36,684 bases of DNA from the NCBI GenBank assembly GCA_023954745.1, contig JAGSHC010000033.1:1-36684 (forward strand), written 5' to 3'. Shown in pieces: positions 1,237 through 13,015 of the stretch. The stretch is from Deltaproteobacteria bacterium. GTDB taxonomy: Bacteria > Myxococcota_A > UBA796 > UBA9615. The notes under the pieces are model-generated. The model searched no databases. It was given only the letters and a program-made list of their open reading frames with translations, and was not told the origin of the DNA. The position numbers were made by a program, and so were the translations under genes. Numbering within the stretch: position 1 is the stretch's first letter; each line of letters begins with the position of its first letter.

Positions 1237-2265
1237 CTACAAATGCTCGAAGTTGCAGTTCAACATGTTGCAGGTGCGGGGGCAGTTGTGCGCCTCCCAG
1301 CGCCGGCGCTGGCTCTGCATCGAGTTCCACATCCAGGGCACCGGCTTGTTCTTCACGTTCCCCACCGGCGGAAGCCAGAAGCAGAGGAGGAAGTTGCCGT
1401 AGGCGTCCAGGGAGATGTCGCTGTGTCCGGCGTTGCAGGGCAGGCCGTTGCTGACGCTCGGGTTGCGGAAGTAGCGCTTCATCTCGCGAAGCTGCCCCAC
1501 CCCGTTGCACACGTGGCCGTCGGCTTCCTTGATGGAGATGAGGTAGTCCAGGGCCCCGTCGAGCTCCTCGAGCTGGTCTTCCCGAGGGAAGTGCGGCGAG
1601 TTCACGAACCAGTTGGGGTCGTAGGTGCGCCCGAAGTTGTTGAACAGCGGCTGATAGACCACCTGGTAGTCCCGCTCCCGCGTCCAGTCCGCCATCTCGG
1701 TGATCTCGCCGACGCTGTGGCGGCTGACGATCATCGCGATGATGACCCTCGGGTTGTCGACCTTGTCCACCAGATCCAGCGTGCGCATGACCTTGTCGTA
1801 GGTACCCGCCTCGCCCCGCATGTGGTCATGAGTGGCGCCCGAGAACCCATCCATCGACACGTACAGGATGTCGAGCCCCGAGTCGGCCAGCTGCTTCACG
1901 CGCCGCTCGTTGAACGTCGTGGCGTTGGTGTTGCTGGTGACCGTGAAGCCGAGGTCGGTGGCGTACCGGATGAGCTCGAAGACGTCCTTGCGCAGGAACG
2001 GCTCGCCCCCCGCGAAGTTCAGCCCCACGGGCCCAGCCCAGGCGGCGACCTGGTCGAACACGCCCTTCCACTCGTTGGTGGTGAGCTCCGGCCCGGGCTT
2101 GATCTTCCAGATGTCGCACATGCGGCACGGCAGGGTGCAGCGGTCGGTGATGGATACGTGGATCTGGTCGGGCAACCCCGGCGCCTTGCGCAGCTTCACC
2201 ACATCCTTCGCGTCCCGCGCGAAGCGGGCGAGGTCGGAGACGAAGAAGCTGCGAGGGCTGTTCAT
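1237..2265 (-). CDS. Stand-alone radical SAM protein with SPASM-like C-terminal cysteines
   Basis: A 342-residue protein of the radical SAM superfamily, which cleaves S-adenosylmethionine with a [4Fe-4S] cluster to start radical chemistry. The cluster motif CxxxCxxC is C43-C47-C50 in DRCTLPCRMCDIW, and the GGEP SAM-binding motif is at 86-89. The C-terminal third has a set of further cysteines (CNAG, LLCFW, then C328, C332 and C337 in CPRTCNMLNC), as in SPASM or twitch domains that bind auxiliary Fe-S clusters. An ATG at 2265 is used here; a GTG two codons upstream (2271) is equally open and neither has a strong ribosome-binding site. The gene stands alone, divergent from a GNAT gene, with no precursor peptide visible beside it. 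The substrate is unknown; peptide or cofactor maturation is the usual role of such enzymes. Confidence 0.9.
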   Translation of the reverse strand: MNSPRSFFVSDLARFARDAKDVVKLRKAPGLPDQIHVSITDRCTLPCRMCDIWKIKPGPELTTNEWKGVFDQVAAWAGPVGLNFAGGEPFLRKDVFELIRYATDLGFTVTSNTNATTFNERRVKQLADSGLDILYVSMDGFSGATHDHMRGEAGTYDKVMRTLDLVDKVDNPRVIIAMIVSRHSVGEITEMADWTRERDYQVVYQPLFNNFGRTYDPNWFVNSPHFPREDQLEELDGALDYLISIKEADGHVCNGVGQLREMKRYFRNPSVSNGLPCNAGHSDISLDAYGNFLLCFWLPPVGNVKNKPVPWMWNSMQSQRRRWEAHNCPRTCNMLNCNFEHL

Positions 2266-2356
2266 GCCCACGCAGGGTAGCCGGGGATTGTGGTCGGTCG
2301 CAGGCGCGCGCGCAGCCAGGCGTCTCCTTCAGCCGCCATTCGATAGCCTGCCCACC

Positions 2357-3715: not shown

Positions 3716-4027
3716 CTACCGGTTTGCGATCTTCTCGAGCTTCATCTTCACCACCGAGCGCTCGCGACCAATGCGGGCGGCCAGCTCTGCGCGCTCCGCT
3801 TCGCCGACGGTTCCCGAGAGCTCGATCTCCAGAGCGCGGATGCGCTTCATCTCCTCCACCAGGGGAGGCGCGATGCCCGCGTTCTTGAGGATGCGCATGA
3901 CCATGCGCAGCTCGGGGTGGATGTGGCTGTCGTCCTCGATGGGGATGGGCTCCCCCTTGAACGGCAGGTTGTCCATCTCCCCCTTCTTGATGGCCGCTTC
4001 GATCATCCGGTCGACGTGCAGACTCAT
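3716..4027 (-). CDS. DUF1992 (DnaJ-C28-type) small protein
   Basis: A 103-residue protein of the DUF1992 family, the domain also found in the DnaJ homologue DNAJC28. The diagnostic order is present: DRMIEAAIKKGEMDNLPFKG near the N-terminus, then a PELRMVMRILKNAGIAPP segment (38-55), followed by a charged helical tail ending KLEKIANR. The biochemical role is not established for bacteria. The ATG at 4027 is preceded by a purine-rich GGGGAGAGG; a longer reading upstream is possible but falls outside the conserved region. It lies 91 bp after the pilC stop in the same direction and converges with the poly-glycine lipoprotein gene; the 100 bp between the two convergent stops hold nothing I recognise. 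Confidence 0.85.
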   Translation of the reverse strand: MSLHVDRMIEAAIKKGEMDNLPFKGEPIPIEDDSHIHPELRMVMRILKNAGIAPPLVEEMKRIRALEIELSGTVGEAERAELAARIGRERSVVKMKLEKIANR

Positions 4028-4118
4028 GCCTCTCCCCTCAGAGGGGCGTACAGGAGCGGGCCCCTCATGCAAGAGATGGGGACGAAGACGAGGGCCGCAA
4101 ATGCAGCACTTCGTTGCA

Positions 4119-5240
4119 CTAACGAACGGCGGTGCCCATCAGGATGCTGAAGTAGGGCAGGAACATCGCCAACAGAACGAAGAGCACCAGGATCCCGAGC
4201 AGGATCGTGAGAACCGGCTGAATGAGCGAGATGATGCGGCCCTGCATGCGGTCCACCTCGGTGCGGAACACCTCGGCGAGGTTGTCGAGCATCTCGGCCA
4301 TGGAGCCGGACTCTTCGCCGATGACGATCATGTCGCGAGCGAGCTCGGGGATGAACCAGTGCTGCTCGAGAGGCGCGCTCATGCGCCCGCCGTTCTCGAC
4401 GGACTTCTCCATGTCCACGACGGCTTCTTCGATGGCCATGTTGTCGACGGTCCCCCGGGCGAGGCGCAGGCTCTCGAGGACGGGCACGCCGGTGCGGAGC
4501 AGCGCCGCCAGCGTCTTTCCGAACCGGGCCATGGCCGCCACCGTCAGCATGCGACCGATGTAGGGGATGCGCAGCTTGAGGAAGTCGAGGATGTAGTTGC
4601 GCATGCTCGTGCCGCGCCAGACCACGAAGGCTCCGAGGCCGAGGACGACGAGCACCGCGATGCGCACGAACGGTGACTGAAGGGCGTCACTCAGGTTGAA
4701 CACCACCTGAGAGAAGAACGGCAGGTCGATCTGCCCGGGGGAGTCCTCGATGATCTGCTTGAACATCGGGGCGACGACCATGAGGATGAACAGCAGCGTG
4801 CCCAAGGTGAACGTCAGAGTGATGAGCGGGAAGATCATCGCCTCCGTCACCTTGTCCCGGACGCTCTCGTCGTGGTCGAGGTTGTCTGCCAGATAGCGAA
4901 GGTTCGCGCTGAGTTCGCCCGCCTTCTCCCCCGCACGGCACAAGGGCACGACCACCGACGGCAGGCCGGGGCCGTGAGTCTGGAGTGCGGTGGAGAACGC
5001 GCCGCCGGCCTCCACGTCCGCGGTCACCCGCGTGACGAGCGACTGCATGCCTCCGCCGGTCGTGCGGCGACCGAGGATCTTGAGCGCCCGCACCATCGGA
5101 ATGCCGGCATCGAGGAGCACCGCGAGCTGCCGACAGAACGTGGAGACATGGCGCGGCGACAGACGCCGGCTGAAGAGTCCGGGGTTGCCCGAGGGGGCAG
5201 GGTCAGCGTCCTGCGCGGGTGCAGGTGCATTGCGGGCCAT
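4119..5240 (-). CDS. pilC: PilC/GspF-family inner-membrane platform protein
   Basis: A 373-residue polytopic protein of the type II secretion/type IV pilus platform family, which sits in the inner membrane and couples the assembly ATPase to pilin insertion. Two copies of the T2SSF domain are visible: residues about 33-158 (STFCRQLAVLLDAGIPMVRALKIL) and 237-360 (ARFGKTLAALLRTGVPVLESLRLA), each starting with the family's helix and followed by GEKAGEL or GEESGSM. Membrane segments lie at about 137-158, 192-208 and 338-366. GGAGG-like GGAGG is 9 nt before the ATG at 5240. It follows pilB by 140 bp on the same strand. Whether it serves a pilus or a secretion system cannot be decided because no pilin, secretin or PilT gene is present here. 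Confidence 0.92.
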   Translation of the reverse strand: MARNAPAPAQDADPAPSGNPGLFSRRLSPRHVSTFCRQLAVLLDAGIPMVRALKILGRRTTGGGMQSLVTRVTADVEAGGAFSTALQTHGPGLPSVVVPLCRAGEKAGELSANLRYLADNLDHDESVRDKVTEAMIFPLITLTFTLGTLLFILMVVAPMFKQIIEDSPGQIDLPFFSQVVFNLSDALQSPFVRIAVLVVLGLGAFVVWRGTSMRNYILDFLKLRIPYIGRMLTVAAMARFGKTLAALLRTGVPVLESLRLARGTVDNMAIEEAVVDMEKSVENGGRMSAPLEQHWFIPELARDMIVIGEESGSMAEMLDNLAEVFRTEVDRMQGRIISLIQPVLTILLGILVLFVLLAMFLPYFSILMGTAVR

Positions 5241-5258
5241 CGTCGGTGTCCTCCATTG

Positions 5259-5276
5259 CGACCCCTGAGGGGGTCG
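5259..5276. repeat. 7-bp perfect inverted repeat in the pilC leader
   Basis: CGACCCC and GGGGTCG flank a TGAG loop, 19-36 bp upstream of the pilC start and just ahead of its ribosome-binding site. In RNA it would be a stable stem-loop between pilB and pilC; it could be an operator or an element that adjusts pilC expression. Function is inferred only from position. Confidence 0.4.
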
Positions 5277-5380
5277 TCCCCTGGCGCACCCTACAACAGG
5301 GGCGCATCAGAAAAATCGCCCATTGAGGGCTCGTTCGTCAACGTTCCGGGGGCACCCAATGGGTCAGATGCGATCCCGGC

Positions 5381-7639
5381 TCACTGATAGAGCACGCGAA
5401 CGAACTCTTCCACGGTGGTCTCTCCAGAGACGACCCTGTGCCGCCCTGCATCGGCGAGGGTCCGCATGCCGCTGTCGAGAGCCATCTGCTTCAGCAGCGA
5501 CTCGGGCTTGCGCTCCGAGATGGCGAGGCGCATGTCGTCAGTGACGTCGAGGATCTCGAAGATGCCTCGACGACCGAGGTATCCCGTGCCAAAGCAGGCA
5601 TCGCAGCCGCGGCCCCGATGAAAGACGGGGCGCTGGACGACCGGCTTCTTCTTCCGCCTTCGTTTCGGCTTCTCGCCCTCGGCAGGCTCGGGCGCAGGCT
5701 CGGCAGCGACTTCCACGAGGTAGCCGTTGGCGGTGAGCCACTCGTCGGTGAGCCCGGCCTGGTTCAGGGTCTGCGGCTCCGGCTCGAACACCTCGCGACA
5801 CTCGCTACAGATGGTCCGCACGAGGCGCTGGGCCACAACGCCCACGAGGGAGGTCGCAAGCAGGAAGGGCGCGATGTTGAAGTTGTAGAGCGTGGTGACG
5901 GCGCCGGTGGCCGAGTTCGCGTGGATGGTGGACAGGACCAGCAGGCCCGTCAGGGAGGCACGGACGGCGACCTTGGCGGTCTCCTCGTCGCGAATCTCAC
6001 CCACGAGGATGATGTTCGGGTCCTGCCTCATCAGGGCGCGCAGGCCCTTGGCGAAGTCGAGGCCGATCTTGTAGTTCACGTTGATCTGGGAGACGTGGGG
6101 GAGAGCGATCTCCACCGGGTCCTCGATCGTCATGATGTTCTTCTGATCGGCGTCCACCTCGCCGAGGCAGGCGTACAGCGTCGTGGTCTTGCCCGACCCC
6201 ACGGGGCCGCAGGCGAGCACGATGCCGTGAGAGCGCCGGGTGAAGTCGTGGAGCTTTTCGTCTTCTTCTGCGTCGAGGTTCAGGAGGTCCAGGGTCGGCA
6301 CCTCCTTCGCACCCGCCGTGATGCGAATGCTCATGCGCTCGCCGTGGGTGGTGGGCACGGTGGCGATGCGGAAGTCGTAGGCATCGCCGTGGAGCTCGAC
6401 GCGGATGTGGCCGTCCTGGGGCTTGCGCCGCTCGGTGATGTCCATGTCGGCCATCACCTTGACGCGGGAGAGCACCTCCTCCCCCATCAACCCGCGCAGC
6501 TGCGCAACGTTGTAGAGAATCCCGTCGAGGCGGAAGCGCGCGCGCATCCCCTCCCGTTGGGGCTCGAGGTGGATGTCGGTGGCGCCCACGGCCGTGGCTC
6601 GCTCCATGAGCGCCCGCGCCATGTCGGGCGGGGAGTTGATGCCGAGGAAGCTGTCCTGGTCGATGCGGAACTCTCCGGTGCCCTTGCGCGGACGGGTGCG
6701 CTCTCGGGGGGCGCGCATGCGGCCGGAGTTGCTGCGGCCTGCGGGGCGCGCGAGGGCTGCGGCCTCGACCGCCTTCTCCCAGTCAGCGAGGACCTCGGCG
6801 AAGCTCGAGGGCGTGTCGATGAGGATCTCGACCTCGTGTCCGGTCACCTTCTTCAGGGTCTCCACGAGGGCGGCGCCCGGGTGGGAGACGGACAAGAGGG
6901 CGACCTGGGAGCCGTTGCTTACGGGCACCACCTGAAAGGCGTGTCCGATCTCGGGGGTGACAGTCGAGCCGAGGGTCGGGTCAGAGACCCACTTGCTGCC
7001 GCGCTTGCGACGCAGTCCAAAGAACTCCGCGGTGACATCGGCCGCGCGCCCCTCGGTGAGGGTCTCGTTCTCGACGAGGGCCGACAGCAGCCGCTTGCCC
7101 TCCTTGAAGGCTTGCTTGTCCGCTGCCTTGACCTCGCGATAGGAGCCGATCTCGGAGTCGAGCACGTAGTCGAACAGGAGGCCGTTGCGGTCGTGGTGCT
7201 CCGGGATGCCGGGGCACGCGCGCAGGATCTCGGCGAGAGTCTCCGGATCCACCTCGCCGGAGGAGAGTACGGACCACCAGAAGCTCGCCCCCGACGTGTT
7301 CGTGCGGCGCGCGAGGCCGAGGGCGGCGAGGCGACGACCGAGGACCCCGCCAGCGCTTCCGTGACTCTCGAGGTAGTCCTCGACGACCTTGCGGCTCAGG
7401 TAGTTCAGGTGAGCGGCGATGCGCTCCACGGCCTTCTCGGGCGACTCGGCGGAGCGCGTCCGAGGAGCCGGAGGGGGCCGGTCTCCAACCCGCCGGCCGC
7501 TGCTGCCCTCGTCCGATGGCTCGGGGCGAAGGTCTTCGGGCCGAAGAGCCTGGTGCTGGCCGGAGAAGCCAGGGACGTCAATCTTGCGGGTCATTGCCTT
7601 GACCAGCGAGCCCCAGAGGGCGGAGTTCTCAGAGGCCAT
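5381..7639 (-). CDS. pilB: PilB/GspE-type assembly ATPase
   Basis: A 752-residue hexameric ATPase of the type II/IV secretion family that powers pilin or pseudopilin assembly. An N-terminal region (about 70-290) carries MshEN/GspE-N-like segments. The ATPase core has the Walker A GPVGSGKTT (478-486), the Asp box TIEDPVE (504-510), the Walker B LVGEIRDEE (545-553) and the His box STIHANSA (570-577). Zinc is probably held by C611/C614 and C679/C682, the usual tetra-cysteine pair of PilB/GspE. Between the pairs lies an unusual insert, rich in Pro, Glu, then Lys/Arg (about 643-668). AGGAGACACA precedes the ATG at 7639; longer readings upstream are not supported. The adjacent pilC supports the assignment, and no retraction ATPase is seen. 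Confidence 0.93.
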   Translation of the reverse strand: MASENSALWGSLVKAMTRKIDVPGFSGQHQALRPEDLRPEPSDEGSSGRRVGDRPPPAPRTRSAESPEKAVERIAAHLNYLSRKVVEDYLESHGSAGGVLGRRLAALGLARRTNTSGASFWWSVLSSGEVDPETLAEILRACPGIPEHHDRNGLLFDYVLDSEIGSYREVKAADKQAFKEGKRLLSALVENETLTEGRAADVTAEFFGLRRKRGSKWVSDPTLGSTVTPEIGHAFQVVPVSNGSQVALLSVSHPGAALVETLKKVTGHEVEILIDTPSSFAEVLADWEKAVEAAALARPAGRSNSGRMRAPRERTRPRKGTGEFRIDQDSFLGINSPPDMARALMERATAVGATDIHLEPQREGMRARFRLDGILYNVAQLRGLMGEEVLSRVKVMADMDITERRKPQDGHIRVELHGDAYDFRIATVPTTHGERMSIRITAGAKEVPTLDLLNLDAEEDEKLHDFTRRSHGIVLACGPVGSGKTTTLYACLGEVDADQKNIMTIEDPVEIALPHVSQINVNYKIGLDFAKGLRALMRQDPNIILVGEIRDEETAKVAVRASLTGLLVLSTIHANSATGAVTTLYNFNIAPFLLATSLVGVVAQRLVRTICSECREVFEPEPQTLNQAGLTDEWLTANGYLVEVAAEPAPEPAEGEKPKRRRKKKPVVQRPVFHRGRGCDACFGTGYLGRRGIFEILDVTDDMRLAISERKPESLLKQMALDSGMRTLADAGRHRVVSGETTVEEFVRVLYQ

Positions 7640-7901
7640 TGTGTCTCCTGGCGGGCGTACCCACCGGTCCCAGTTGCGGGGATCCGTAATTCTAGACCGA
7701 TCGATGGCAAGTTCGGGTGACGAGGTGCATCGCGGGCGGTGGGGCGGACGGACGCGTCGACACAAATCAGTCGAAAGAACCGCCGGTTGCGACGCGCAAA
7801 CCACCACTTTGGACACCCCGCCCGCTCCCTCCCAGCGAGGCGCTGGGCGCCTGAGCACCCTGGTCCACGCCGGCTGGCACCTCGCGCACTACACTGCCGC
7901 C

Positions 7902-8732
7902 GTGCCGCTGACGTCCTTCCCCCTCCGACACGCAGCCCGCCGCGCCCTCTTCGGGGTCTTCGCTCGCGTGCGCCGGCGAGGAGGGCGTCGCACGAAGGTC
8001 CTCGGCATCGCCCTCGACATCCCCGCTGGGGTCCATCATCCCGGTCTCGACCCCTCCTCCGGGTTCTTTCATCGCACCGTGGGCCCCATGATCGCGCCGG
8101 GCCAACGCGTGCTCGATGTGGGCTGCGGCGCCGGGCTGGGCGCTCTCGTGGCAGCGACCCGAGGTGCAGCCGTCCTCGCCCTCGACGCCGCTCCCACCGC
8201 CCTCGAAGCCACCGCGGCGAACGCCCGCTCCCAGGGGATCGCGGTCGTGGCCTCCCCTCCCGAGCCCGGACAACTCCAGACACTCACCGGCCAGGTACCG
8301 GACGCGCTGGCCGACCCTGCCGTCGTCGGCTCCGATCCCTGGGACCTCGTGCTCTGGAACGCCCCTCAGCGAACTGAATCCCACCGCGCTGCGGTCCTCG
8401 ATGCCCTCCCGACCCTCCCGACCCTCCTCGGCGAGTCGGGCCGCCTTCTGCTCCTCGTCGAGAAGGGCTCAGGCCTCGAAGACCGAGTCCGCGCGGCGAT
8501 GCCGTTCGAGTATCGCGTGGTCGAGCTGGCCCGCGACCTGGGGCTCCGCCCTGCGTTCAGGGTGCTCTGCCTCGGCTTCGACAAGGAGGCGTCCCGGGCG
8601 CGTCGTCACGCCGAGCGCAAGCGCACGAAGGCCGCCAAGGCCGCGGTGTCCCGCCGCAAGTGGGAAGGAAAGGGCGAGAACCCAGCCGCCCCCGCCCCGT
8701 CCTCCGACGAGCCCGTGGAGACCCAGCCGTGA
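7902..8732 (+). CDS. SAM-dependent methyltransferase, RsmC/PrmC-like fold, basic tail
   Basis: A 276-residue class I methyltransferase. The SAM-binding motif I is VLDVGCGAGLGALVAA (70-85), the acidic end of strand 2 is LALDAAPTALEATAANA, and the motif IV position reads DLVLWNAP (148-155), where N-methyltransferases such as PrmC or RsmC have NPP(Y/F). The change from NPP to NAP weakens a base- or glutamine-N-methylation assignment. The C-terminus (from about 228) is a highly basic stretch followed by a Pro/Glu tail, suggesting nucleic-acid or ribosome contact. The GTG at 7902 is chosen because the conserved part begins there; the frame stays open with coding-like composition upstream, so the start is uncertain. 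A small AGGCGC/GCGCCT hairpin lies at 7838-7852. It is the first gene of a four-gene rightward set. Confidence 0.82.
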   Translation: MPLTSFPLRHAARRALFGVFARVRRRGGRRTKVLGIALDIPAGVHHPGLDPSSGFFHRTVGPMIAPGQRVLDVGCGAGLGALVAATRGAAVLALDAAPTALEATAANARSQGIAVVASPPEPGQLQTLTGQVPDALADPAVVGSDPWDLVLWNAPQRTESHRAAVLDALPTLPTLLGESGRLLLLVEKGSGLEDRVRAAMPFEYRVVELARDLGLRPAFRVLCLGFDKEASRARRHAERKRTKAAKAAVSRRKWEGKGENPAAPAPSSDEPVETQP

Positions 8733-9082
8733 GACCACGCCGCATCGCTCGCCGCTTCTACGCGCGCATGACCCACTGGGGCACCCCGCACGTGCACTGC
8801 CCCAGCTGCGGCGGCGACACCACGGTGCCGCGCGCCCACGACGAGCAGATCTGCTTCGTCTGCCACGTGAAGTGGTTCCGACTCGACCTCACCGGGGACG
8901 ACGCCGTGGACTGGGCCGCGATGAAGGCCCGCGCGTCAGAGCTCGGCGCGCGGCATGACGGCCCCGGCGGCAAGCCCAACTGGGCCGTGGTGTGGCGCCC
9001 CCTCCTCGTGGACTGCCCCGACGGCCACGGCGGCAAGCGCACCGAGTCCACCGAGATGGCCTTCGGGTACTTGCTGGGGTGA
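8729..9082 (+). CDS. Small zinc-ribbon protein
   Basis: A 117-residue protein with a four-cysteine zinc ribbon: CPSC at 24-27 and CFVC at 42-45, after a short Arg-rich start (VRPRRIARRFYAR). The remainder is a short mixed domain containing DWAAMKARASELGARHD and NWAVVWRPLLVDCPDG. Its GTG start overlaps the TGA of the methyltransferase gene by 4 nt (GTGA), so the two are probably translationally coupled and functionally linked. An ATG at 8768 would remove the basic leader and is less likely given the overlap. No named family was recognised. A nucleic-acid-binding or protein-protein adaptor role is the usual one for such ribbons. Confidence 0.8.
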   Translation: MRPRRIARRFYARMTHWGTPHVHCPSCGGDTTVPRAHDEQICFVCHVKWFRLDLTGDDAVDWAAMKARASELGARHDGPGGKPNWAVVWRPLLVDCPDGHGGKRTESTEMAFGYLLG

Positions 9083-9128
9083 AGGCTCCGGCGGCGACCC
9101 CGCGCGCCACCGGTCATACTCCCTGACA

Positions 9129-11780
9129 GTGAACGTCCGCTCCACCAGCGCAGCTGACCCTGGGTCCGACGCGCGCGCTCGCCCGCGTGAGGGCAAGCCG
9201 TTGCACATCACCCTGGTCACCCGGCACGACCTGCTGCCCGCCGTGCACGGCGCCGCCGTCAAGGTAGTGCGCACCGCCGAGGCCCTGAGCCGCCAGGGGG
9301 CCGAGGTGACCATCGTCACCGGGGACCGCGAGCACTACCACCGCTATCGCGACGGCAACCACGAGGTCCTGGCATACCACCCTCGCTGGGTCGCCGCGAC
9401 GCGGGTCCCCCGGCGACTGCGCCCCTGGCTCGACCGCCTCGGTCTCCCCGACTACTGGCGCACGGTCGAAGGCCTGCTCGACTCCCTCGGCTACCCCCGC
9501 GACGAGCACATCCTCTACCAACCCCTGGTGGACCCGGAGTTCTGGCTACGCACCATCTACGTGGGCATCCGCCACCGCACCGACTGGTTCCAGGCGGAGT
9601 TCCCCGGCTTCGGCGCCCCCGCCTGGGTGGCCGCCCGCGTCCTGCGCCGCAAGTGCTCGGTCGTGCAGCACAACGTCGAGTGGAAGCGGCTCGAGGACAC
9701 CACGGAGCTTCCCCCCGAGGTCATCCAGCGCCTGCGGGAGATCGAGCTCCAGCTCTGTCATCTGGCCGACGAGGTCATCACCTGCAGCTCCGACGACCGG
9801 GAGCTGATGCTGCCCGACGACTTCGAGCGGGACGAGATCACTGTCATCCCCCACGGCGTCGAGCGCAGCATGTTCGTGGGCAAGAGCGGCGCGGGGGTGC
9901 GCGAGCACTACGGCATCCCTCGCGAGAACGCGCTGCTGTTCTTCCACGGCACCCTTCACTACTGGCCCAACACTGTGGCCTGCCGCGTCTTCGCCGAAGA
10001 GGTCATGCCCCGCCTCGCAGACCGCGGCCGCAACGTATCTCTCCTCGTCGCCGGCATGGGGCCGCCCGAGCGCTACACCCACGCCAACCTCACCTACGCC
10101 GGCTGCGTCGAAGACCTCGCCACCCACATCGCCGCCGCGGACGTGTGCGTCGTCCCCCTGCTCGACGGCGGAGGAACGCGCCTCAAGATCCTCGAGTACT
10201 TCGGTGCCGGCAAAGCCGTCATCTCCACCCGCAAGGGCGCCGAGGGGCTGCTGCTGGAGGACGGCTACGACGTGTTCCTCACCGACGACGGAGACTGGGA
10301 CAGCTTCTGCGACCGCATCGAGGAGCTGCTCGACGCGCCCGACCAGGCCGCCGCCATGGGCCACAACGCGCGGCAGTTCAGCGACGCCTACGACTGGGAC
10401 CGCGTGGGCGCCGCGTTCCTCGACCTCTACGAAGGCCGTGAGGCCGTCCGCGGCACGGACTTCAACGCCACGTTCTCGTCGGAGGTGGAGCGAGACGCCG
10501 CCGGCCTCGCCGCCCAGATGCCCCGCATCGTCGCCGCCCAGACCCAGGCCCACGACCTCATCCTGCGCAAGGAGCGCCGGGGCAACGCCTCCGCTCTCCT
10601 CGACGGTGGCACCGTCCCCGAGGTCGTGCACTGGGACGAGGACCAGGTGCTGCACGAGCTGTCCGAAGAGGACATCACGAAGCACATCCCCGGGGAGCTG
10701 GACTGGCAGAAGCCCCGCACGATGATTCTGCTGCTCAACAAGCGCTGCAATCTCAAGTGCGACTTCTGCGACCTGTGGCACTTCACCGACATGATGCCCT
10801 TCGAGTCGGCCATCACCGTCATCTCCCGGGCGCCGGCCGCCGGGGTGAAGACCCTCGTCATCACCGGCGGCGAACCCTTCATGCACCCCCGCATCTTCGC
10901 CATCATCGAGTACGCCAAGAACCTCGGGCTCGGCGTGAACATCACCACCAACGGCACCCTGCTCCGGCGGGACATGCAGTCGCTGATCAACAGCCGGGTG
11001 GACTCGCTCTCCATCAGCGTCGATGGCTTCGAGGAGACCCACGACGTGTTGCGGGGCGTGGACGGCGCCTACGCAGAGACCATGGCCGCCATCACCGAGC
11101 TGCAGACGCGCACGAAGATCCACCTGAACATCTACTTCGTGGTGACCAACCAGAACGTCCAGGACCTGGTGCAGATCCACGACTTCGCCCAGGACCGCGC
11201 CATCGGCTTCGACTTCTGGCCGGTCAATGGCTACCCACACCTGTACGTCACCGAGGGCGAGCACAAGGCCGCCTACCTCGCCGCTGTCCAGGAGATCGGC
11301 ACCCGCAACGCCGAAGTCGCCGAGCGCATGGACTACTACCAGTACGGCATCGAGTACATGGAGGGGCGCCGCGACCACGTGCGTTGCCTGGGCCTCATCG
11401 AGCAGTTCGGGGTGAACCACGAGGGCAAGCTGGTGCCGTGCTGCGTGTGGGACCAGAAGGGCCTGCAGGTGGGGAGCGCTCTCGACGAGCCCCTGGACCA
11501 GCTCTTCTACAGCCAGCGGGCCCAGGACATGCGCGAGGAGGTGTTCGGCACCGGCTGCCTCGACCAGTGCTTCAACCACTCGCTGTACGAGTTCCAGCAG
11601 GCGACGGGCTTGCCCTTCGTGGTGCAGGAGGCGACGCGGGACGTGGGCAACGATGCCCTCATCAAGGAGTCTGGCCAGGCGCGCGAGGGAGAGGCGAAGG
11701 CACGACGACGCGCTGCATCCAAGGCCCGCCGCGCCAGGGAGCTGGCCGCCAAGGCCCAGGCTGAGGGGAGCGGGCAGTGA
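9129..11780 (+). CDS. Glycosyltransferase family 4 / radical SAM-SPASM fusion protein
   Basis: An 883-residue two-enzyme fusion. Residues about 24-440 form a GT-B glycosyltransferase of the GT4 type: HITLVTRHDLLPAVHGAAVK at the start, VVQHNVEWKRLE and VIPHGVERSMF in the middle, and the sugar-nucleotide site PLLDGGGTRLKILEYFGAGK (343-362). After a linker of about 90 residues comes a radical SAM domain: C540, C544 and C547 in NKRCNLKCDFCDLW, GGEP at 580-583, and SPASM-like cysteines C753, C771/C772, C810 and C814. The tail (855-877) is Lys/Arg/Ala-rich. The GTG at 9129 is chosen; the region upstream belongs to the zinc-ribbon gene, and a TTG just before HITLV is possible. A fusion of these two activities is not one I know from a described pathway. 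Glycan or glycopeptide modification is inference. Confidence 0.9.
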   Translation: MNVRSTSAADPGSDARARPREGKPLHITLVTRHDLLPAVHGAAVKVVRTAEALSRQGAEVTIVTGDREHYHRYRDGNHEVLAYHPRWVAATRVPRRLRPWLDRLGLPDYWRTVEGLLDSLGYPRDEHILYQPLVDPEFWLRTIYVGIRHRTDWFQAEFPGFGAPAWVAARVLRRKCSVVQHNVEWKRLEDTTELPPEVIQRLREIELQLCHLADEVITCSSDDRELMLPDDFERDEITVIPHGVERSMFVGKSGAGVREHYGIPRENALLFFHGTLHYWPNTVACRVFAEEVMPRLADRGRNVSLLVAGMGPPERYTHANLTYAGCVEDLATHIAAADVCVVPLLDGGGTRLKILEYFGAGKAVISTRKGAEGLLLEDGYDVFLTDDGDWDSFCDRIEELLDAPDQAAAMGHNARQFSDAYDWDRVGAAFLDLYEGREAVRGTDFNATFSSEVERDAAGLAAQMPRIVAAQTQAHDLILRKERRGNASALLDGGTVPEVVHWDEDQVLHELSEEDITKHIPGELDWQKPRTMILLLNKRCNLKCDFCDLWHFTDMMPFESAITVISRAPAAGVKTLVITGGEPFMHPRIFAIIEYAKNLGLGVNITTNGTLLRRDMQSLINSRVDSLSISVDGFEETHDVLRGVDGAYAETMAAITELQTRTKIHLNIYFVVTNQNVQDLVQIHDFAQDRAIGFDFWPVNGYPHLYVTEGEHKAAYLAAVQEIGTRNAEVAERMDYYQYGIEYMEGRRDHVRCLGLIEQFGVNHEGKLVPCCVWDQKGLQVGSALDEPLDQLFYSQRAQDMREEVFGTGCLDQCFNHSLYEFQQATGLPFVVQEATRDVGNDALIKESGQAREGEAKARRRAASKARRARELAAKAQAEGSGQ

Positions 11781-13015
11781 ACGTCGACGCGCTGAACCTC
11801 TCGGGCTCCTACATGGTGCTGGAGACCACGAACCGCTGCCCCCTCAAGTGCGGGCACTGCGCCGTGGCCGAGGCGGACTCGGGTCATCCCCACTACAGCG
11901 ACATCAAGCACATGCCCCTGGGCATGGTGCGCGAGCTGTTGGTGGACCTGCGCACGTCGGGCCTGCGCTACGACAACCTCGTGATGTTCTGGCTCGGCGA
12001 GCCCTTGTCGCACCCGCGCTTCGCGGAGATGTACGACCTCATCCTGGAGCACAGCGGCAACGGCGAGATCTTCGGGAAGATCGAGGTCCACACCAACACC
12101 TTCCCGCTGAAGCCCCACATCGCCGACCGCGCGCTGAACGACGCCAAGGTCCCGCAGGTGTGGCACCTGACGCTGGACGCGATTCGGGAAGACACGTTCA
12201 AGGTCATCAAGGGCCTGGACGCGATGAAGAAGTCGCAGAAGCAGGCGCTCTACATGGTGCAGCGGAAGGGCAGCACGTCGGCGCGGTGGCCGAAGCTGGC
12301 CATGCAGTTCATCGTCAGCGACGTGAACGCGGACGAGGCCCCCGAGTTCGTGGAGTTCTGGACGAAGGCCTACCGGGATGCAGGGCTGCCCATCGAGACC
12401 ACCGGCTTTCACGTGCCCGTGGACGGGCCCGAGAACTACATCTTCCTCAAGCAGCTCGACTGCGCGACCCCCGAGGAGCAGGACGGTCAGAACCGGGTGT
12501 ACGCGGGGCTGATGAAGAAGCTGGGGCTGCGCTCGCCGGTGAACCCCAACGCCGAAGAGGCGGTGGCGTCCTCGGTGCCCCGCACCCTGAAGACCCCGTG
12601 CTCGGGCTTCTACCTGTCCCCCACCATCGGCAGCGACGGGCGCGTCACCGTGTGCACGCGAGACAACAGCTATCACAACGTCGTGGGCAACCTCGTCGAC
12701 CAGAGCTTCTCGGAGCTGTGGCTGCGCAACCCGTGGCTGAACCGGCGCCGCCAGATGGTGGCGCGGGGCGACTACAGCGAGCTTCCGTACTGCCAGGGAT
12801 GCTTCATCCCGAGCTCGGTGAACTACTCGGGCATCACGCAGAGTCAGATCGAGGGCTTCTTGCACGGAGCGGAGCTCGATGGCACGCGGGTGCAGGCCCC
12901 CGACGGGCTCCCGCCCTGGGCGAGGCCCTACCCAGACGAGTACAGCGGACGCGAGGTGGAGCTCACCTACGGGGACCGCACGGGTCCGCGGGAGCTGGTG
13001 CAGATCGGCGGCTAG
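11777..13015 (+). CDS. Radical SAM/SPASM protein coupled to the fusion gene
   Basis: A 412-residue radical SAM enzyme. The cluster motif is C21-C25-C28 in TTNRCPLKCGHCAVAE; the SAM-binding strand reads FWLGEPLSHP (71-80) in place of GGEP. A SPASM domain follows with C275 (TPCSGFYL), C293 (GRVTVCTRD), and C339/C342 (LPYCQGC), preceded by the family pattern GNLVDQSFSELWLRNPW. SPASM proteins commonly modify peptides or mature cofactors through auxiliary Fe-S clusters. The GTG start overlaps the stop of the upstream fusion gene by 4 nt (GTGA), so the two radical SAM proteins are almost certainly made together. Both genes begin at the same short sequence CAGTGAACGTC. No precursor peptide was found close by. 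Confidence 0.92.
   Translation: MNVDALNLSGSYMVLETTNRCPLKCGHCAVAEADSGHPHYSDIKHMPLGMVRELLVDLRTSGLRYDNLVMFWLGEPLSHPRFAEMYDLILEHSGNGEIFGKIEVHTNTFPLKPHIADRALNDAKVPQVWHLTLDAIREDTFKVIKGLDAMKKSQKQALYMVQRKGSTSARWPKLAMQFIVSDVNADEAPEFVEFWTKAYRDAGLPIETTGFHVPVDGPENYIFLKQLDCATPEEQDGQNRVYAGLMKKLGLRSPVNPNAEEAVASSVPRTLKTPCSGFYLSPTIGSDGRVTVCTRDNSYHNVVGNLVDQSFSELWLRNPWLNRRRQMVARGDYSELPYCQGCFIPSSVNYSGITQSQIEGFLHGAELDGTRVQAPDGLPPWARPYPDEYSGREVELTYGDRTGPRELVQIGG

Follow-up and report, generated by a model that had tools for sequence, protein, structure and literature searches.

The stretch of DNA analysed here (36,684 nt; hereafter the window) encodes a single polypeptide in which a GT4 glycosyltransferase is joined to a radical SAM (rSAM) enzyme, and across one bacterial class this fusion is co-inherited with four or more additional rSAM enzymes, one of which appears to be split into a catalytic protein and a free SPASM/twitch protein. 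We propose, with a probability of roughly 0.4, that these genes constitute an undescribed, class-wide pathway that makes a multiply radical-modified cell glycan. The component families are known; the GT4–rSAM fusion combination is new, and searches of the mostly open-access literature for the fusion, the gene set, spiro-SPASM and the free-standing SPASM protein returned no description. The genes and domains of the window are as follows.

1237-2271, minus strand: rSAM3 (344 aa), the third co-inherited rSAM gene, displaced within the window and overlooked by the first-pass annotation
7902-8732, plus strand: class I methyltransferase-like gene (Pfam), taken as a neighbour
8729-9082, plus strand: zinc-ribbon-like protein gene, a neighbour found in family f1 only
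9129-11780, plus strand: GT4-rSAM1 fusion (883 aa, GTG start), with conserved sequence from about residue 25
9201-10448, plus strand: GT4 glycosyltransferase domain, residues about 25-440 (Pfam; invariant columns)
10449-10664, plus strand: linker of the fusion (from the alignment), long in the window's order and shorter in families f5-f9
10740-11189, plus strand: radical SAM core of rSAM1, with CxxxCxxC at 540/544/547 and GGEP at 580-583 (Pfam)
11385-11570, plus strand: predicted twitch/SPASM-type auxiliary cluster domain of rSAM1, C753-X17-C771-C772 ... C810-X3-C814
11777-13015, plus strand: rSAM2 (412 aa), radical SAM plus twitch-pattern domain, C275-X17-C293 ... C339-X2-C342, overlapping the fusion by GTGA

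The frame 8955-11780 (+) is open throughout, and the GTG start at 9129 yields the 883 residues that had been read in the first-pass annotation as one GT4–linker–radical SAM protein. Pfam bears this out, since Glyco_transf_4 (41.8 bits; gathering score 28.5), Glyco_trans_1_4 (73.7 bits; gathering score 27), Radical_SAM and SPASM all matched the fusion above their gathering scores. Based on these scores and on the conserved active-site region (H40-GAA-K45, GGGTR 347-351 and E356, invariant in the alignment of fusions), the fusion belongs to the GT4 glycosyltransferases, and the Radical_SAM domain with its CxxxCxxC motif, the three cysteines of which are invariant in rSAM1-5, places it in the radical SAM superfamily as well. 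The fusion stop overlaps the rSAM2 start by GTGA at 11777-11780, and Radical_SAM and SPASM domains were found in 11777-13015, as had been claimed for a second, coupled radical SAM/SPASM gene. Of the four-gene coupled operon described earlier, both GTGA overlaps are present (the other, between the methyltransferase and zinc-ribbon genes, at 8729-8732), but the zinc-ribbon gene stops at 9082 and the fusion starts at 9129, which leaves a gap of 46 nt; there are therefore two coupled pairs and not one chain. Structure prediction from two-sequence alignments gave a mean pLDDT of 41.6 for the fusion and 40.7 for rSAM2, too low for a fold search.

The fusion was detected in 42 of 58 relatives. When a profile of 18 fusions was compared with 379 genomes of the phylum, the fusion was found in 49, all of the window's class and belonging to eight families; 48 of these matches span nearly the whole profile, and the match in G034 is cut by a contig end. 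The domain order was read in one open frame in the 17 further loci aligned, and the three rSAM cysteines, five auxiliary-domain cysteines, GGEP and the GT4 GGGTR...E region are all invariant. Pairwise identities of the GT half and the rSAM half were closely correlated (Mantel r 0.91; none of 2000 permutations was as high), as expected for one ancestral fusion passed on as a unit. That the fusion is an error of sequencing or assembly, or two genes read through by chance, is conceivable a priori in a fragmented assembly, but nothing was found in favour of this, and recurrence of the fusion in 49 genomes of the class, in separate assemblies, makes it negligible; the same fusion in one frame across these assemblies also excludes a missed stop or an assembly error in the linker. 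Domains that are always separate and have unrelated neighbours, or a missed linker stop, had been named at first pass as grounds for giving up the fusion, and neither was observed. Family f3 lacks the fusion, as does G012, a member of family f6. No fusion relative was found in the viral contigs and plasmids searched; one was found in the MAG of an uncultured proteobacterium (L009), in a scan by short exact patterns that gives no evidence of absence outside the phylum.

In G059, a member of another class of the phylum, the GT (L075:8951-10174; 38% identity) and rSAM1 (L076:9356-10306; 43%) are encoded on different contigs; judged by these similarities, the fusion of the window's class joins what G059 keeps as separate genes. 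The total of fusion-positive genomes is accordingly given below as 50 of 379, that is, 49 with the fusion and G059 with two separate genes. The rSAM1 gene of G059 lies in a row of seven rSAM genes and a free SPASM gene, many with overlapping ends (L076:7123-14630; G059:C185), which match the genes of the window's genome in the order rSAM4 (42%), rSAM3 (26%), rSAM1, rSAM3 (32%), rSAM6 (41%), rSAM4-like plus free SPASM, and rSAM2 (36%). By this matching order, the rSAM genes that are scattered in the window's class form one single run in the distant G059. A few kb from the run (L076:162-4055), genes resembling a HemN-type oxidase, ferrochelatase and protoporphyrinogen oxidase were also noted.

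A conserved radical SAM partner gene had been anticipated, and rSAM2 is such a gene: in the 379 genomes of the phylum it was found in 46 of the 50 fusion-positive genomes and in 0 of the 329 others. The four positive genomes without it (G030, G034, G044 and G292) are fragmented assemblies, 72-88% complete. The Fisher test gave 5e-55, which is not a true probability because related genomes are counted. Among the 58 relatives, rSAM3, rSAM5 and rSAM4 were present in 39, 36 and 37 of the 42 positive genomes, respectively, and all three were absent from the 16 negatives. The location of the genes varies: rSAM3 comes immediately after rSAM2 in the majority of f1, f2 and f4 relatives; rSAM5, rSAM4 and the free SPASM gene are on another contig of the window's genome (G000:C323); all five rSAM genes are at a single location in family f2; and in f5-f9 rSAM2 and rSAM3 are often next to rSAM5 and rSAM4 at a second locus. 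These co-occurrence counts are of related genomes and not of independent events, and the in-class negatives come mostly from one family (f3). The weightier events are fewer, namely the absence of the whole set from f3, its absence from G012 together with its full presence in the family member G042, and its joint presence in the distant G059. Taken together, it is very likely that the fusion, rSAM2, rSAM3, rSAM5 and rSAM4 with the free SPASM protein form one functional system. A 751-aa frame on another contig of the window's genome (L118, about 3778-6031, minus strand; G000:C333) combines an active rSAM/twitch domain with an rSAM2-like domain that has lost CxxxCxxC; long frames of this type, with matching hits, occur in other f1 and f2 genomes, and the first half of the 751-aa frame is matched by one gene in the run of G059.

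The tabulation of neighbours across genomes thus upheld the radical SAM partner, but not the methyltransferase and the zinc-ribbon protein that had been expected beside it. Of 58 genomes, 5 have the zinc-ribbon gene, and these all belong to the window's own family f1; in the loci compared the methyltransferase was seen solely beside it, in f1. Neither is therefore regarded as core, and both the zinc-ribbon protein as a part of the system and the suggested methylation step are unsupported. PADLOC matched the methyltransferase (7902-8732) to Mad2 of the MADS system, over the methyltransferase region only.

The auxiliary domains were compared with the two described forms. SPASM is defined by a seven-cysteine motif, CX9-15GX4C-gap-CX2CX5CX3C-gap-C, that holds two clusters (PMC6231123), and twitch is its shortened, one-cluster form (PMC6231123; PMC9012708). 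In rSAM1, 2, 3 and 5, the pattern is C-X17-C(-C) ... C-X2/3-C with 4-5 cysteines, and the free SPASM protein is alike. The "SPASM-like cysteines" reported earlier thus amount to only 4-5 of the seven of SPASM; by cysteine pattern, the domain of these five proteins is a shortened one with some four predicted cluster cysteines, i.e., a twitch domain. No auxiliary cysteine is invariant in rSAM4, and the twitch pattern is carried by the neighbouring free SPASM-domain protein (114 aa; L122:2421-2765 on G000:C323), which adjoins rSAM4 in f1 and f4. Judged by these patterns, rSAM4 and the free SPASM protein are probably a split twitch enzyme; such a pair would make it possible to take out or exchange the auxiliary cluster as a protein of its own, which bears on the role of auxiliary clusters. 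Free-standing SPASM/twitch proteins of 103-123 aa are kept across families (L122, L120, L121, L123, L108, L125, L132 and L076:13171-13542).

When the rSAM2 profile was compared with solved structures, BtrN was the sole match, and the alignment covered each of the four cluster cysteines. In the biosynthesis of butirosin, BtrN catalyses the oxidation of a cyclitol (PMC9012708). For rSAM1 and rSAM3, SkfB was the best solved match and cytosylglucuronate decarboxylase the second. According to the authors of the SkfB structure, sequence is a poor guide to fold and function within this subfamily (PMC6231123); given this warning, and given that SkfB acts on a peptide, the structural relatives are only mild evidence for a sugar.

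Genes for nucleotide-sugar synthesis adjoin the second locus of the window's genome. On L122, 3' of rSAM5-rSAM4-SPASM and on the same strand, a run with short gaps or overlaps encodes PilZ, a 4,6-dehydratase-like protein, a PseC/LegC-like aminotransferase, a hexapeptide acyltransferase and an ABC transporter (families assigned via the close homologues L120 and L121). Dehydratase, aminotransferase and acyltransferase is the usual working order for a 4-acylamino sugar nucleotide. The dehydratase, the first aminotransferase and the acyltransferase were observed adjoining rSAM4 in f1 only, and a second aminotransferase, the ABC genes and a prepilin peptidase have a wider distribution close to rSAM4/5 or to the SPASM gene. 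Since G012, which is without rSAM genes, still has the ABC permease, the DegT_B, ABC and PilD genes were not adopted as parts of the system; this wider aminotransferase/ABC/PilD set may be neighbours only.

The GT4 domain, the nucleotide-sugar genes beside rSAM4/5, the BtrN match of rSAM2 and the second place of cytosylglucuronate decarboxylase for rSAM1 and rSAM3 all point to a sugar. On this sequence evidence, the chances are about even that the pathway builds a radical-modified glycan or glycoconjugate, and the combined sugar-transfer and radical pathway first suggested for the locus is still the best reading. Starting from the gene content, domain order, conservation, co-inheritance, cysteine patterns and adjoining nucleotide-sugar genes described above, the following scheme is proposed, in which the sugar substrate, the types and order of the reactions and the acceptor are all putative. 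The GT4 domain would transfer a sugar from a nucleotide-activated donor to an acceptor, and rSAM1, held beside it, would abstract hydrogen from the transferred sugar. Further oxidation, epimerisation or deoxygenation of the sugar could then be performed by rSAM2-5 through 5'-deoxyadenosyl-radical chemistry, rSAM1 and its partners using one auxiliary iron-sulfur cluster each. Transaminases might aminate the resulting ketones, by analogy with BtrN and its aminotransferase in the butirosin pathway.

The strongest alternative is that a protein or peptide, such as a lipoprotein or pilin, is the substrate of the rSAM enzymes and is also glycosylated by the GT4 domain. The closest solved relatives of the rSAM proteins include SkfB, PqqE and CteB, f5-f8 have small conserved lipoprotein genes beside rSAM4/rSAM5, and type IV pilus genes lie near several loci. 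However, no PqqD/RRE domain was found by Pfam in the rSAM proteins, as would be expected of RiPP rSAM maturases, and when small ORFs near the rSAM genes were compared across families, only the SPASM protein was both conserved and not read against another gene, in agreement with the first-pass annotation, which had found no precursor peptide. These two results disfavour a peptide route, although a divergent RRE or a precursor encoded far from the rSAM genes would have escaped the searches. Moreover, none of the lipoproteins was observed in f1, f2 or f4, and PilB-type ATPases gave 23 matches in the window's genome (11-23 in fusion-positive genomes and 2-5 in f3), so many that chance nearness is not rare; type IV pilus linkage was downgraded as a functional clue on this account. 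A protein or peptide target is therefore considered unlikely, at about one chance in four.

It is less probable again, and on the whole doubtful, that the target of the rSAM enzymes is the lipid moiety of a glycolipid whose head group is supplied by GT4. Phosphatidylinositol mannosyltransferases are among the PDB relatives of the GT4 domain, tetraether lipid synthase is among the better solved relatives of rSAM3, and B12-binding rSAM genes occur near some loci, but the sequence similarity is limited to the general rSAM core and no lipid-biosynthesis gene is consistently linked. Slightly weaker still is the case for a glycosylated redox cofactor of the mycofactocin kind, in which rSAM enzymes mature a small molecule or peptide and a GT adds a sugar chain. 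A SPASM rSAM enzyme is likewise found together with a glycosyltransferase (MftF; PMC7491314) and a methyltransferase in mycofactocin itself. The window's set departs from it in that rSAM5 scored 68.6 bits against a cut-off of 265 for the rSAM model and the methyltransferase 24.1 against 200 (MftM), no precursor was found, there are at least five rSAM enzymes, and the methyltransferase was seen in f1 alone.

Butirosin biosynthesis is one of the closest parallels. BtrN, like rSAM2, has a twitch-type domain with the four aligned cysteines, and its partners are a DegT-type aminotransferase and a GT4-type glycosyltransferase, so that both gene sets include an aminotransferase and a glycosyltransferase. 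Unlike butirosin, the window's set has the GT fused to an rSAM enzyme, at least five rSAM enzymes, and scattered, class-wide genes instead of one antibiotic cluster. The cytosylglucuronate decarboxylase BlsE (7vob) is likewise a sugar-acting rSAM enzyme, but it stands alone, and rSAM1 scored 56.6 bits against the BlsE model cut-off of 400. The twitch sactisynthase SkfB (6efn) shares the twitch domain with rSAM1 and rSAM3, but carries an RRE domain at its N-terminus and acts on a peptide; neither such a domain nor a peptide substrate was found for them. To spiro-SPASM (TIGR04321), rSAM2 and rSAM4 show resemblance in the rSAM part of that longer model only (33.5 and 46 bits; cut-off 250). Two further candidates were rejected: viperin-type defence (NF038283, 64.3 bits against a cut-off of 180, the PADLOC matches covering mainly the rSAM core) and the XrtA/PEP-CTERM glycosyltransferase TIGR03087 (81.8 against 316.65 bits).

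Sugar-modifying radical SAM enzymes are known from antibiotic pathways. If the proposed pathway is real, a conserved class-wide rSAM set tied to a glycosyltransferase would mean that radical sugar chemistry serves a cellular product that is widely kept; the GT4-rSAM1 fusion would couple sugar transfer directly to radical chemistry at the functional level, and the separate GT and rSAM1 genes of G059 provide a natural control.

Several other neighbours were recorded. An RNase HI-like protein with a conserved N-terminal extension is encoded right after the GT4-rSAM gene at most f5-f9 loci (L034:11619-12386, L043:5070-5822 and others) and was treated as a neighbour only. A lipoprotein family lies directly downstream of rSAM4 in f6-f8 (L108:6109-6840, L125:7699-8382, L129:8830-9456, L131:10779-11537 and others), the one member scanned having no Pfam match, and a second small lipoprotein is found near rSAM5 (L110:13025-13456, L113:11049-11489 and L129:14781-15218). 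Type IV pilus genes lie beside the fusion locus, with pilC and pilB in the window at 4119-5240 and 5381-7858 (minus strand) and pilB-pilC-pilS-pilR in f4 (L031:13109-19001); a prepilin peptidase is encoded at the second locus, that of rSAM4 and rSAM5.
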